Shown here: positions 8,855-54,820 of the stretch, piece by piece
Numbering within the stretch: position 1 is the first letter of the stretch
Layout: every line of letters begins with the position of its first letter
NCBI RefSeq assembly: GCF_015169395.1
Contig: NZ_CP063458.1
Coordinates: 6,696,001 to 6,760,000, forward strand
Source of the DNA: Humisphaera borealis
GTDB lineage: Bacteria > Planctomycetota > Phycisphaerae > Tepidisphaerales > Tepidisphaeraceae
Direction: 5' to 3'
DNA: 64,000 bases
The notes under the pieces: generated by a model
Database searches by the model: none
Seen by the model: only the letters and a program-made list of their open reading frames with translations
Told to the model about the DNA's origin: nothing
Made by a program: the position numbers and the translations under genes

Positions 8855-8982
8855 TATGTGATTTCTTAAGGAGCCGCGCACGGAGTGTACTCACGGAGTA
8901 AGCGGAACCGCAGAAGGTTCGGGGCTCCTTCCCGCTTACTCCGTGAGTACACTCCGTGCGCGGCTCCTTAAGAAATCACATA
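8855..8982. repeat. Palindromic repeat family A, copy 1
   Basis: A roughly 50-bp inverted repeat (arms about 8855-8904 and 8931-8982) around a 26-bp loop, with core GAGCCGCGCACGGAGTGTAC. The same arms recur at 14064-14178 and 54665-54767. It lies between two co-oriented PQQ-like genes. Confidence 0.9.
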
Positions 8983-9017
8983 CTCTCAGGCTGACAAAAC
9001 TTGCGATCCCGCCTGCA

Positions 9018-10544: not shown

Positions 10545-10931
10545 TTACCGGCGCAGCCGCACGCGAATCGGCCCCTTCGCGGCACTCAGATCAACTACCC
10601 GCCCGCGCTGCGTGATATCGACCAGGCCCCGATCCACCAGCCGCCTGGCCGCCCGCCGGGCATCCTCCATGAGCTCCCGCCAGCCGGCCGGATCGACAAG
10701 TCGCGCCGCTTCCGAAGGGCAAACCGTCGCGCCGACAGTCCGGCACGCCAGCAGATCGAGCAGGGCACGCTCGAGCTTCAGATCGACTTCGCCCACCCCT
10801 CTGCGCCGACACGCGTCGGAGCAATATTTCACGCCACCCCAATCGCGAGCCCATTTCTTCCGCCAAGTGATCCTGCGGCCGCAGGCGACACAGGCCTTTT
10901 CCGGCAGGGTTTCACGCGACGGGTTTGCCAT
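10545..10931 (-). CDS. DUF2256-DUF3253 fusion, small zinc-binding protein
   Basis: A 128-aa protein with start [18 protein letters not shown] at 10931; the upstream extension in the same frame is unconvincing. The first 45 residues match DUF2256: a CxxC pair (ACVACG), the [13 protein letters not shown] segment, then YCSDAC, together a likely four-Cys zinc site. The rest matches DUF3253, a winged-helix-like region with [20 protein letters not shown]. The two domains are often fused in bacteria; function is unknown, with nucleic-acid binding a plausible guess. It is divergent from the replication-initiator-like gene that follows. Confidence 0.85.
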
Positions 10932-11110
10932 GGCAACACAATAGTCGCGGGCGACAAGGGGCGCCCCGACCATCTTCCATCCTCGTCGACGATGCGCAAA
11001 ACGTCGTCCGATGAATTGCGTAACGGCTGGCACCCTAACATCTGCGCCTCGGCCGCGACAATTTGCCGTGGTGCGACTTTGGGTATCCTGTCGCGAGCAT
11101 GTCCAAGGTT

Positions 11111-11119
11111 TGTGGATAA
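11111..11119. promoter_or_regulatory. Perfect DnaA-box 9-mer
   Basis: TGTGGATAA is the complement of the consensus DnaA box TTATCCACA. It lies about 90 bp before the likely start of the replication-initiator-like gene. A single 9-mer can occur by chance; a second one is at 28432-28440. Confidence 0.4.
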
Positions 11120-11202
11120 CCCGGTCACAACCTACAACCCGTAGTGTGTCCGCAGACAGATTCGACAACCCCGCCGCCCCCCTTCATTCGCACCAGATCC
11201 GC

Positions 11203-12360
11203 GTGGATACAGCCGAAGAGCTGGTCACCGTGCAGATCGGCGGCGAAGGGTCTGTTCCCGGGGGATTCGCCAAGTTTTTCAATCGAGTGGTCGATTCCGA
11301 GGCGTGGGCCCACCTCTCCGACGCCGGGCGTGCCGCTTACATTCCGATGGTTCGCTTCGCGGACCACCGCAATCAGTACCGAGTGCAAATCGGCCAGGCC
11401 TCGCTGATGAAGTACGCCGGGCTGTCTCGGTCGTCGATCAAGCGCGCGATCAAGGACCTACTGCAGAGCAAACTGCTTGTACTCGTGGAGCAGGGCGGGG
11501 TTACGCCTGACGGGCGGAACGAATCCAACCTCTACCAGCTGATGGTCCCGGTCGACCCACGACCCCGACTTGGCACACCTGAAACGCCAACGGCGATCCC
11601 GTGGACCCACCGCAGCGCGGCAGGCATGGCAAGGGACGAAGCTCTCCGTCCGAACCCCCTCCCGGTCCAGCCGCGAACCCCCTCCCGGTTCGAAGTCGAA
11701 CCCACCGCCGGGCCCGCCGAGAACCCGGTGGCGGGTCGGTCGCGAACCCCGTCCGGGGCGCGAAGAACCCACCCGGGTACGGTCACCGCTGACCCCCAAT
11801 TAAGAAGCATCAAAGAAGTAGAAGACAACAACACGTCGTCACGCCTACCCCAACCTGTGGTACCCGTTCGGGAAGCGTCTACCGATGCTGCTGCTCTTTT
11901 GGTGGAGAATGGCGTAGAGGCACCAGTCGCTCGGAAGCTCGCCGGCGAGTTTCCCGTTTCGCGAATCGTCGATGTCATCGACACGATGAGGTTCCGCGCC
12001 GCACGCGGCAAGTGCGATAACCCCGGCGGATTCATCCGAGATGCGCTGGTCAAGCAGTGGCAAACGCCCCGTGCGGTGGTCGATGCCCGGGCCAAGGCCG
12101 AGGCCGCGGAGAAGTCCCGCATCGCGTCGGAACGGCAACGTCAGGCCGAGCAGGCAAAGGTCGCGACGGTGAACGCCGAGGACCGTCAGACCGAGCAGCT
12201 CATCGCCGCGCTGGACGACGACGAGCTGGAAATGCTCGCGATGGAGGTCCTGAAGAAGTACGACGGCAACACGGCCGTCCTGGCCGTCCTCACCCGCAAG
12301 CCGCCACGGCAGTGCCGCCTGATGAAGATGGAGATCGCGGGGATGCTGGGGCGGGGTTGA
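11203..12360 (+). CDS. Replication-initiator-like protein with helix-turn-helix domain
   Basis: Start is uncertain. GTG 11203 gives 385 aa beginning VDTAEELVTVQIGGEG, just before the conserved region; the frame is open further upstream to 11011. The N-terminal part contains a winged HTH of the HTH_36 type used by plasmid and phage replication proteins (KYAGLSRSSIKRAIKDLLQS). A Pro/Arg-rich linker of about 45 aa follows, encoded by six 23-bp DNA repeats. The C-terminal part has GKCDNPGGFIRDALVKQW, similar to the NPxGxxRxAL motif of plasmid initiators, then an Ala/Glu-rich helix. No plasmid genes surround it, so it may be a domesticated or leftover initiator. DNA-binding role fairly likely; initiator role is inference. 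Confidence 0.6.
   Translation: MDTAEELVTVQIGGEGSVPGGFAKFFNRVVDSEAWAHLSDAGRAAYIPMVRFADHRNQYRVQIGQASLMKYAGLSRSSIKRAIKDLLQSKLLVLVEQGGVTPDGRNESNLYQLMVPVDPRPRLGTPETPTAIPWTHRSAAGMARDEALRPNPLPVQPRTPSRFEVEPTAGPAENPVAGRSRTPSGARRTHPGTVTADPQLRSIKEVEDNNTSSRLPQPVVPVREASTDAAALLVENGVEAPVARKLAGEFPVSRIVDVIDTMRFRAARGKCDNPGGFIRDALVKQWQTPRAVVDARAKAEAAEKSRIASERQRQAEQAKVATVNAEDRQTEQLIAALDDDELEMLAMEVLKKYDGNTAVLAVLTRKPPRQCRLMKMEIAGMLGRG
11652..11777. repeat. Six iteron-like direct repeats, 23-bp period, inside a coding sequence
   Basis: Units starting GAACCC begin at 11652, 11675, 11698, 11721, 11744 and 11765 (steps 23, 23, 23, 23, 21), each with a CCGG-like element about 10 bp in. Because 23 is not a multiple of 3, the repeat is read in a different frame each time (NPLP, RTPS, EPTA and so on). 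The conservation is therefore at the DNA level. Confidence 0.85.
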
Positions 12361-14063: not shown

Positions 14064-14178
14064 TTTAAGGAGCCGCGCACGGAGTGTACTCACGAAGTAA
14101 GCGGGAACCGTGACGGTCCGGGCCCCATCCCGCTTACTGCGTGAGTACACTCCGTGCGCGGCTCCTCAAGAAATCACA
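14064..14178. repeat. Palindromic repeat family A, copy 2
   Basis: Same arms as 8855-8982 with a few changes (CACGAAGTAAGC, CTTACTGCGTGAG). It sits between the co-oriented cytochrome/DUF1553 and DUF1501 genes and is flanked on the right by a GAGGTACTCCGAAGA motif that also occurs at 20.08 kb. Confidence 0.9.
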
Positions 14179-14223
14179 ACCTCTGAGGTACTCCGAAGAA
14201 CCTACGCACAGGGCAGAGCAGGA

Positions 14224-26565: not shown

Positions 26566-27579
26566 TCATGTCTCTGTTGAATCGAGGTCGCTCTTTTGCA
26601 TGCGAATCAAAGTTTTCTTCTGTACGACTAGGCCGCGCGAGCGGCCGACCGCCATCGCCTGCGTCCAGTTGACTTCTCGGAACCGTTGCAAAAGCTGACG
26701 TTTGCGGTCGCGGTTAATCCAACCAACAAATTGGACGCGTCCCCGGACTTGGCTCTCAGTGTAAAAGGGTCCGTCAAAATGGCGGTCGTTCGAGAGTTCA
26801 CCCGCATCCGCAAGTTGGCGCTCTAATTCCAATACATACTGTTCGCGCACATCAAGCCGACCGTTTCTTACACGAAGCTGCGTGATTGTCATTTCGTCCT
26901 CAGAGAGCCGTCCGAATCGACTCTTCTCCAACTGGAGCTCGAATCCGTTGCCGGTGACGATCCGTTCGAGCAAAGCAGATACTCCGCATGACTCAGGTGA
27001 CAGATCGAACGATCCCGAGATGGCGATGTCGTCAACGAATCTCGAATACGAAAGTCCCATACTTCGGCATGCCCCGGCGATTCGCGCGTCAATCGGATGA
27101 AACAGTTGATCGGCAAGAATGGGGCTCGTCGGCAGTCCGAGCGCCAACTTATAGTCGTAGGTGGTGAGCTTCGTGCAAAGACGGCTAACATCTGGCGAGC
27201 AATTCAGTCGCTTGCTGAAGAGCTGATAGACCCGCCTGTGACCGATGGAGGGGTAAAAGTTGCTGATATCCGCTGAGAACAAGTAGTTTGCGTTGAGATG
27301 GCACGACGCATTGGTCTTGATGTTGCGACCACTGATTCCCCCATGACTGTACGGCGACACGTTAAGTACAGGCAGCAGAACAACACGAAGCAAACGTGTT
27401 TGAATCTGCTTCAGCTTCCCCTTTACATTCAGCACTTCGCGTTGCTTGTTCGGCCGCGTCGGATCGTTGAGGAGCAACGTCTCTATCCAATCGTCGGGCC
27501 TGTCCGCGACGTCGCGAAGTACCGAGAGCGAGACGCCGAGCCTATATGCTAGATTCTTTGGCGTCTTTAGATTCAGCAT
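26566..27579 (-). CDS. Retron-like reverse transcriptase
   Basis: A 337-aa RNA-directed DNA polymerase. Start ATG 27579 has GAGAGG 3-8 nt upstream and lies 38 bp inside the end of the XRE gene, suggesting translational coupling. RT motifs: motif A with D104 in SADISNFYPSI, motif B LGLPTSPILA (149-157) and the catalytic F181-V-D183-D184 (FVDD in place of the more usual YADD). NASCH (90-94) matches the NAxxH signature of retron RTs. The retron VTG position reads ITQ (232-234), so the C-terminal RNA-recognition region is divergent. Length fits stand-alone retron or defence RTs, with no maturase or endonuclease domain. Together with the upstream structured RNA candidate it suggests an unusual retron. 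Confidence 0.9.
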   Translation of the reverse strand: MLNLKTPKNLAYRLGVSLSVLRDVADRPDDWIETLLLNDPTRPNKQREVLNVKGKLKQIQTRLLRVVLLPVLNVSPYSHGGISGRNIKTNASCHLNANYLFSADISNFYPSIGHRRVYQLFSKRLNCSPDVSRLCTKLTTYDYKLALGLPTSPILADQLFHPIDARIAGACRSMGLSYSRFVDDIAISGSFDLSPESCGVSALLERIVTGNGFELQLEKSRFGRLSEDEMTITQLRVRNGRLDVREQYVLELERQLADAGELSNDRHFDGPFYTESQVRGRVQFVGWINRDRKRQLLQRFREVNWTQAMAVGRSRGLVVQKKTLIRMQKSDLDSTET

Positions 27580-30090: not shown

Positions 30091-30790
30091 TCCGCTGGGG
30101 CAGGCGTTGACTCCGCGGAGAAAGAGGAGAGCCGGGCGATCGGGGACGATCGCGCCGGACGGTCTGGTTTTGGCGGGCAGAAGCGATGGACAGACCAGGA
30201 GACGAAGGGACGACGTGCGCAGGCTGATCGATCACTTGGGTTCGTTCGGCAATGTCGCGCTGGGTTCGTTCGGCGAACAAGCCGCGGGCGCAGTGTACCC
30301 GCGAAGCCCCGGGTCCCGGGAGTGAGCTTGGGTTCGTTCGGCCAAAATGCGAGGACTGAGGATGAGCGTCTCCTGGTGTGTGACGCATCTCGCACGGCTT
30401 GGAAAGCCGTGTCACGGACAGCGGTTCGCGTACAGATTGGACAGGGCGTCCTGGGTTCGTTTGGCGGCATCGCGTTGGGTTCGTTTGGCGAAAGGGAGGT
30501 GATTAAGGATGGACGCCCTCTGGTGTGTGATGTAGCTCGCACGGGCTGGAAGCCCGTGTCACTGACGGGGTCGTTCAACGGGGTCGCCTTGGGTTCGTTC
30601 GGCAATGTCGCGCGAAGTCATTGGGCGTTCGACGTTCGGCGTTGGGCGTTCAACGTTGGGCGTTCGCCTTGGGTTCGTTCGGCAGGGTCGTGGCGACACG
30701 GGCGGGACGCCCATGCCACGCGATTCCTGGGTTCGTTCGGCGACGGTGCGTCGGGTTCGTTTGGCGGCGGGCGTGTCGTGAGACGACCCC
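29940..30790. repeat. Long composite repeat, copy 1, with nine GGGTTCGTTYGGC units
   Basis: The first ~300 bp (from CGAAAAAAGG through ACTTAACATATACCG to GATCGATCACTTGGGTTCG) is homologous to 36743-37030. A cluster of 13-mers GGGTTCGTTYGGC follows at 30238, 30262, 30330, 30453, 30478, 30591, 30671, 30729 and 30753, interspersed with a hairpin unit CTCGCACGGCTTGGAAAGCC. All six frames give low-complexity peptides (NEPN-like on the minus strand), so I see no gene in 30091-30877. Confidence 0.85.
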
Positions 30791-36742: not shown

Positions 36743-37380
36743 GCCGAAAAAGGGTTGCATTTACCTTCCCGTCACTTAACATATACCGAACAATATCGCG
36801 GTGCCGGCCGGGATTCGTGACGGGATCGGTCGGCGGGTTCTCTCTGTGCGCCGCCCCGACGGGTGTGATCCGTCGTCGCTGGCGTCTACTCCGCAGAGAG
36901 AGAGATGAAGCCGGGCGATCGGTGTCGATCGCGCCGGGCGGTCTGGTTTTGGTCGGTAGAAGAGACGGAGAGACTCCGAGACGGAGAGACGAAGTGCACA
37001 GGCTGATCGATCACTTGGGTTCGTTCGGTGACCCGCGCGAGGCCATCAGGCGTATGGCGTTGGACGTTCGGCGATCGTCCACCTGCTCGGGTTCGTTCGG
37101 CAGAGCTGCGCTGGGTTCGATTGGCGAAGGTGGGACTGAGGATGGAGGTCTCTTGGCGTGCGACACCTCTCGCACGGCTTGGAAAGTCGTTTCACCGATA
37201 GTCGCCTTGGGTTCGTTTGGCGATGTCGCGCCGGGTTCGTTTGGAAGGAGGAGGTGACTGAGGACGGACGTCTTTTGGTGTGTGACGCCTCTCGCACGGC
37301 TTGGAAAGCCGTGTCACGGACAGTCGCCTTGGGTTCGCTCGGCGATGTCGCGCCGGGTTCGTTTGGCGGCAACGCGCTGA
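36743..37380. repeat. Long composite repeat, copy 2
   Basis: Begins GCCGGCCGAAAAAGGG and shares with copy 1 the ACTTAACATATACCG box, the GGGTGTGATCCG box, a GCCGGGCGATCG...CGATCGCGCC hairpin, GGTCTGGTTTTGG and AGGCTGATCGATCACTTGGG, in the same order and orientation. GGGTTCGTTYGGC units (some with one change) follow at 37018, 37090, 37112, 37209, 37233, 37331 and 37355, with two CTCGCACGGCTTGGAAAG units. It ends a few bases before the stop of the DUF1552 gene. No gene is visible in it. Confidence 0.85.
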
Positions 37381-54596: not shown

Positions 54597-54664
54597 AGAT
54601 ACGTCCTCCAGGTGGAGGGCGTCGGCCGCGAACAGACTTGTCATCCTGAGAGCATGTGACTTTT

Positions 54665-54767
54665 TGAAGAGCCGCGCACGGAGTGTGCTCACGGAGTAAG
54701 CGGGAACCGTGACGGATCGGGGGCATGCCCGCTTACTCCGTGAGTACACTCCGTGCGCGGCTCTTCG
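54665..54767. repeat. Palindromic repeat family A, copy 3
   Basis: Arms GAAGAGCCGCGCACGGAGTG... and the complement end at 54767. Here the repeat separates convergent genes (54596 and 54821), where it could act as a bidirectional terminator. An unpaired GCGCTCGGCGGTCCC element, half of the hairpin at 29774-29830, follows at about 54796. Confidence 0.9.
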
Positions 54768-54820
54768 AATCCGTCTCGTGTTCGTGCCGAGCAAGCGCTC
54801 GGCGGTCCCAGGTCGGCACT

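Follow-up and report, generated by a model that had tools for sequence, protein, structure and literature searches.

A putative lambda-type replicon core within an orphan initiator gene of the Humisphaera borealis chromosome

The initiator gene and its in-gene repeats

The window analysed here is a 64,000-nucleotide stretch (positions 6,696,001-6,760,000) of the single 7.19-Mb contig of Humisphaera borealis. It contains an open reading frame at 11011-12360, with a GTG at 11146 as its probable start, encoding a protein that resembles replication initiators of the O-like and RepA_N types, of which a search of the whole genome found one copy. The features of this locus are as follows:

10545-10931, minus strand: divergent neighbouring gene encoding a DUF2256+DUF3253 protein, syntenic in a genome of the same genus (G001)
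11111-11119, minus strand: perfect DnaA box TTATCCACA, upstream of the conserved coding part
11185-12357, plus strand: conserved part of the O/RepA_N-like initiator gene
11266-11541, plus strand: N-terminal winged-helix DNA-binding domain (residues ~28-119 of the AlphaFold model), assigned by fold matches, with a pN/pS of 0.16
11652-11668, plus strand: iteron 1, GAACCCCCTCCCGGTCC, assigned by dyad score
11675-11691, plus strand: iteron 2, GAACCCCCTCCCGGTTC, assigned by dyad score
11698-11714, plus strand: iteron 3, GAACCCACCGCCGGGCC, assigned by dyad score
11721-11737, plus strand: iteron 4, GAACCCGGTGGCGGGTC, assigned by dyad score
11744-11760, plus strand: iteron 5, GAACCCCGTCCGGGGCG, assigned by dyad score
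11765-11781, plus strand: degenerate sixth half-site, 21 bp after iteron 5 and outside the 23-bp register
11798-11833, plus strand: AT-rich stretch AATTAAGAAGCATCAAAGAAGTAGAAGACAACAACA, a candidate unwinding element and the least stable 36-mer in its 3-kb context
11875-12054, plus strand: C-terminal helical domain including the NPGGFIRDALVKQW motif, a candidate contact for the helicase or its loader

The repeated unit is a 17-bp dyad, an inverted repeat of the form GRACC-N7-GGKYC; a 6-bp spacer of variable sequence separates it from the next, and five such units occupy 11652-11760. They match the pattern GRACC-N7-GGTYC at 10, 10, 9, 9 and 8 of its 10 core bases, and GAACCC recurs exactly at 11652, 11675, 11698, 11721 and 11744, at a strict 23-bp pitch. 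The initial annotation had counted six 23-bp iterons, of which five stand, the sixth (11765) lying only 21 bp further on, with a degenerate right half. The 7-base dyad spacer was adopted after inspecting the units, a 6-base spacer having given a weaker signal. With this model, a tandem pair of dyads at 0-1 mismatch is unique to the array across the 7.19-Mb genome, and the score of the array was reached by none of 1000 synonymous shuffles that preserved both protein sequence and codon usage. This rules out coding bias as the source of the array, and bears out the earlier proposal that selection acts on the DNA.

The heptamer CGAACCC also occurs within a dispersed intergenic repeat, GGGTTCGTTCGGCGA, at 30.2-30.8 and 37.0-37.4 kb of the window. 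The GAACCC units are not copies of this unrelated element, as the heptamer alone is common to the two, and both dyad and pitch differ. The dispersed repeat clusters at 30238-30777 and 37017-37375, often as pairs 24 bp apart with the common block CTCGCACGGCTTGGAAAGCCGTGTCAC, and has ~106 approximate copies in the 1.56 Mb sampled.

In the AlphaFold model, which is mediocre, being built on three sequences with a mean pLDDT of 56.7, the winged-helix domain (~28-119) is followed by a low-confidence linker (124-230), and then by a helical C-terminal part. It is the iterons and the AT-rich DNA that encode this linker. Relative to G001, pN/pS is 0.16 in the N-terminal domain, 0.88 in the linker, and 0.48 in the C-terminal domain. 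By this measure the N-terminal domain is under purifying selection, whereas the linker is predicted to be disordered and its protein sequence is nearly unconstrained. The contrast between an almost freely varying linker protein and a constrained N-terminal domain indicates that the constraint on the linker acts at the level of DNA. The helix-turn-helix and NPGGFIRDAL motif previously noted in the protein are both present, and are kept in its closest homologues.

Conservation in related genomes

Homologues of the initiator, found among the Phycisphaerales metagenome assemblies that represent its relatives in the genome collection, are 65% (G001), 57% (G002) and 32-36% (G013) identical to it. 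Together with the window gene, this makes four array-bearing genes from three genera, all with intact frames and no stops. In each of the three homologues the dyads lie in the matching linker at a 23-bp pitch, the spacing whose loss from homologues the initial annotation would have counted against its reading. The best five-unit arrays have 43-46 of 50 core matches, exceeding all 1000 shuffles in each of the four genes, a comparison somewhat favoured by the dyad pattern having been derived from the genes tested; independent of that is the agreement of all four on 23 bp as the best period among 17-32. Most half-site positions are kept, with A/G, G/T and C/T alternations, while the 6-bp spacer varies. 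A generic scan for adjacent repeat units failed to pick up the G001 and G013 arrays, for whose detection the dyad model is needed.

The AT-rich stretch is similarly conserved, each of the four genes having one directly downstream of its array. In the window gene, G001 and G002 this segment is the least stable 36-mer of the context examined, and in G013 it ranks third. The DnaA box fared differently: the perfect 9-mer at 11111 is there as described, but it is not a conserved part of the locus, as no DnaA box at up to one mismatch was present in the analysed context of the three homologues. Perfect DnaA 9-mers number 12 across the genome, against 11 for a reversed control pattern. A role for the box as part of an origin is unsupported in the homologues. 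The genome encodes two proteins with Bac_DnaA domains (G000:C1:389407 and 1059069), and two perfect DnaA boxes lie 271 bp apart at G000:C1:3149869 and 3150140, intergenic between an ABC-transporter-like and a cold-shock-like gene.

The close form of the gene was found in four of the 26 genomes of the family, a patchy distribution that makes it unlikely to be essential across the family as a whole. Searches of phages, plasmids, IMG/VR and the wider phylum returned no close relative, with one weak plasmid match, and the dyad scan found no 23-bp dyads in the more distant homologues of G017 and G010. Directly after the latter (L076, 9151-12237; G010:C9) come genes of ParA-like and ParB-like type, and an ORF nearby was named by eye as ArdC-like, corresponding to a plasmid or integrative element.

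Relationship to known initiators

Profile and fold searches both point to initiators of the O-like and RepA_N types. PHROG families annotated as replication initiation or O-like match all four proteins, with best values between 8e-6 and 3e-4, and three of the four match phage_O_Nterm weakly, under its cut-off. Pfam RepA_N gave no match at E up to 1, and the profile search likewise revealed no Rep_3 domain. Among the best Foldseek matches in the PDB were the N-terminal domains of staphylococcal RepA (4pql, 5kbj, 4pt7 and 4pta; E ~0.01, probability 1.00), with fold Z-scores of 8.0-8.8, although the winged helices of TFIIE equalled the value of 8.8. The best viral fold match was a lambda GpO N-terminal protein (E 1.9e-5).

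The anatomy is that of the lambda design. Within lambda gene O lie four iterons of 18 bp and an AT-rich stretch of 38 bp (PMC3349717); the iterons are almost perfect inverted repeats to which O binds as dimers, thereby opening the A+T-rich region (PMC5043065). Both systems place their origin, a putative one in the window gene, within the initiator gene, with inverted-repeat iterons encoding the linker between two domains, the first of a DNA-binding type; in both the iterons are near-palindromic (18-19 bp in lambda, 17 bp in the window gene), and are succeeded by an AT-rich stretch of 36-40 bp, that of the window gene being recognised from sequence alone. Unlike lambda, the window array consists of five units at a 23-bp pitch, of unrelated sequence, and the gene is chromosomal, has no P or DnaC-type partner alongside it, and is not accompanied by phage genes; the protein itself, at 15.6 bits against 45.5, falls far under the phage_O_Nterm cut-off. 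Hence the window locus would work like the lambda origin by its anatomy, rather than by membership of the curated family.

Two other groups of initiators also offer parallels. The RepA_N initiators of pSK41, pTZ2162 and the Vibrio satellite PLE have semi-palindromic iterons and may share with the window protein an N-terminal fold of RepA_N/DnaD-like type, and some chromosomal copies are known, but the window protein does not match the Pfam RepA_N family, and its dyads do not converge on a poly-A tract. Iteron plasmids of the P1, RK2 and pSC101 type likewise have phased iterons beside an AT-rich stretch, with a DnaA box in the vicinity. However, theirs are direct repeats bound by monomers, as opposed to in-gene dyads, and the profile search returned no Rep_3 domain for the window protein. 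The likeness to plasmid initiators first proposed for this protein therefore holds insofar as it is initiator-like, with the closest designs being those of phage lambda O/ori and RepA_N, rather than the classical iteron plasmid.

The design is not confined to this clade. O-like genes turned up in many Phycisphaerae in a scan with phrog_270, intermixed with ordinary helix-turn-helix regulators. Strong in-gene arrays were present in such genes with periods of 22 bp (L106), 23 bp (L111), 18 bp (L112), 17 bp (L116) and 33 bp (L117 and L120), differing in sequence as well as period, and mostly with an AT-rich stretch behind. The O-like gene of G022 is accompanied by an adjoining gene for an IstB/DnaC-like ATPase, a gene for an HTH_17 protein, and a tyrosine integrase gene, and that of G011 has an integrase nearby. 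These two examples indicate that mobile elements of in-gene-origin design exist in the class, from one of which the orphan clade probably descends. The initiators of such integrative elements (e.g. G022, L136) share with the window gene the winged helix, in-gene iterons and AT-rich stretch behind them, but differ in iteron sequence and period (17-33 bp), in having an integrase near, and, in G022, in the adjoining DnaC-like ATPase.

A probable retained replicon core and its alternatives

The window gene is embedded in a different kind of context. The main neighbours within ~12 kb are of host type (DUF2256/DUF3253, PQQ, DUF1501, planctomycete cytochrome/DUF1553, iron-transport, LigA and NAD(P)H-hydrate dehydratase), with DUF1501 and DUF2256/DUF3253 genes directly beside the initiator. 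The DUF2256 and PQQ neighbours are common to the window and the 5-kb contig of G001, such that the gene was probably in place before the two species split, and G002 and G013 have other host-type genes nearest to theirs. No integrase, par, phage, structural or transfer genes were found among the ~12-kb window neighbours or the nearest genes of G002 and G013. Nor is there a helicase-loader gene (P or DnaC) alongside; besides DnaA, the genome has only weak IstB-type matches.

We consider the locus to be a retained and probably functional orphan replicon core of the lambda type, self-contained and lodged in the chromosome, to which we assign a probability of roughly 0.75 from sequence comparisons. 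That an origin-like iteron array is embedded in the gene for its own initiator-like protein, as originally proposed, is well supported at the level of sequence. The N-terminal winged-helix domain would bind the five 17-bp dyads in the middle of the gene, probably as a dimer; once the array is loaded, the adjoining 3' AT-rich stretch would be expected to melt, with the C-terminal domain then recruiting the replicative helicase, either directly or through a host loader. Most likely, the replicon arrived as part of an integrative element like those still present in relatives, and has outlasted the rest of it. Some members of this one Planctomycetota family may even have domesticated it as an active second chromosomal origin, firing ectopically under special conditions alongside DnaA/oriC, although this stronger version is doubtful.

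The initial annotation had instead left a choice between an active integrated plasmid and a relic, both of which are less probable than the retention of an orphan lambda-type replicon. All examined neighbours resemble ordinary host genes, which speaks against an integrated plasmid. A decayed plasmid or prophage, of which a non-working initiator gene and origin survive by chance, would explain why loader, integrase and par genes are absent nearby, why presence is patchy, and why the fifth and sixth units are degenerate; yet four genomes from three genera have kept frame and array intact and free of stops, and the N-terminal domain shows purifying selection, which likewise speaks against a dead relic, making this an unlikely account. 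Rather less likely again is that the protein is an initiator-derived regulator, one that binds the in-gene repeats to repress itself or to serve some other non-replicative purpose. Initiators commonly autoregulate, and the orphan location without replication partners would suit such a role, but a repressor needs neither the AT-rich stretch kept beside the array nor the C-terminal domain that has been retained.

Continued mobility, as an integrative element with unrecognised ends that replicates after excision, is very improbable. Other O-like genes of the class do lie near integrases, and the distant G010 relative is beside ParA/ParB-like genes, but the adjacent genes are of host type in three different contexts, and flanking genes are common to G001 and the window. 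The ~125-bp palindromic, MITE-like repeats (TTAAGGAGCCGCGCACGGAGTGTACTCACG...) at 8866-8990 and 14065-14188 bracket the rep region, yet cannot be taken as att sites or target duplications, as they belong to a dispersed family with a third copy in the window (~54663-54769) and about six in the 1.56 Mb sampled. Least credible of all is that this is the main chromosomal origin. GC and keto skew both dip locally near 6.72 Mb, at a distance of ~10-13 kb from the gene, which would fit this; against it, the chromosomal parB and two perfect parS sites are at 3.999 Mb, 2.7 Mb away, the sampled global skew minimum, albeit weak, is near 2.7 Mb, and the gene is absent from most relatives. Nor does the locus resemble an oriC, for which a cluster of DnaA boxes at the skew minimum near parS would be expected, as the gene has a single perfect box. 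The sampled whole-genome GC skew is weak and ambiguous for placing oriC, and neither proves nor excludes local firing.

A retained replicon core would extend the origin-inside-initiator design of lambda to orphan chromosomal genes of Planctomycetota, as part of a class-wide family of such initiators with diverse in-gene iterons. Should the orphan copy prove functional, a natural chromosome would here possess a phage-type origin besides its own, and the locus could serve as a basis for replicative vectors in Planctomycetota, for which, to our knowledge, few exist. Elsewhere in the window, a low-GC stretch at 24-30 kb contains a gene for a reverse transcriptase (RVT_1, 2.2e-10) on the minus strand at 26566-27579, possibly of a retron-type or defence function.
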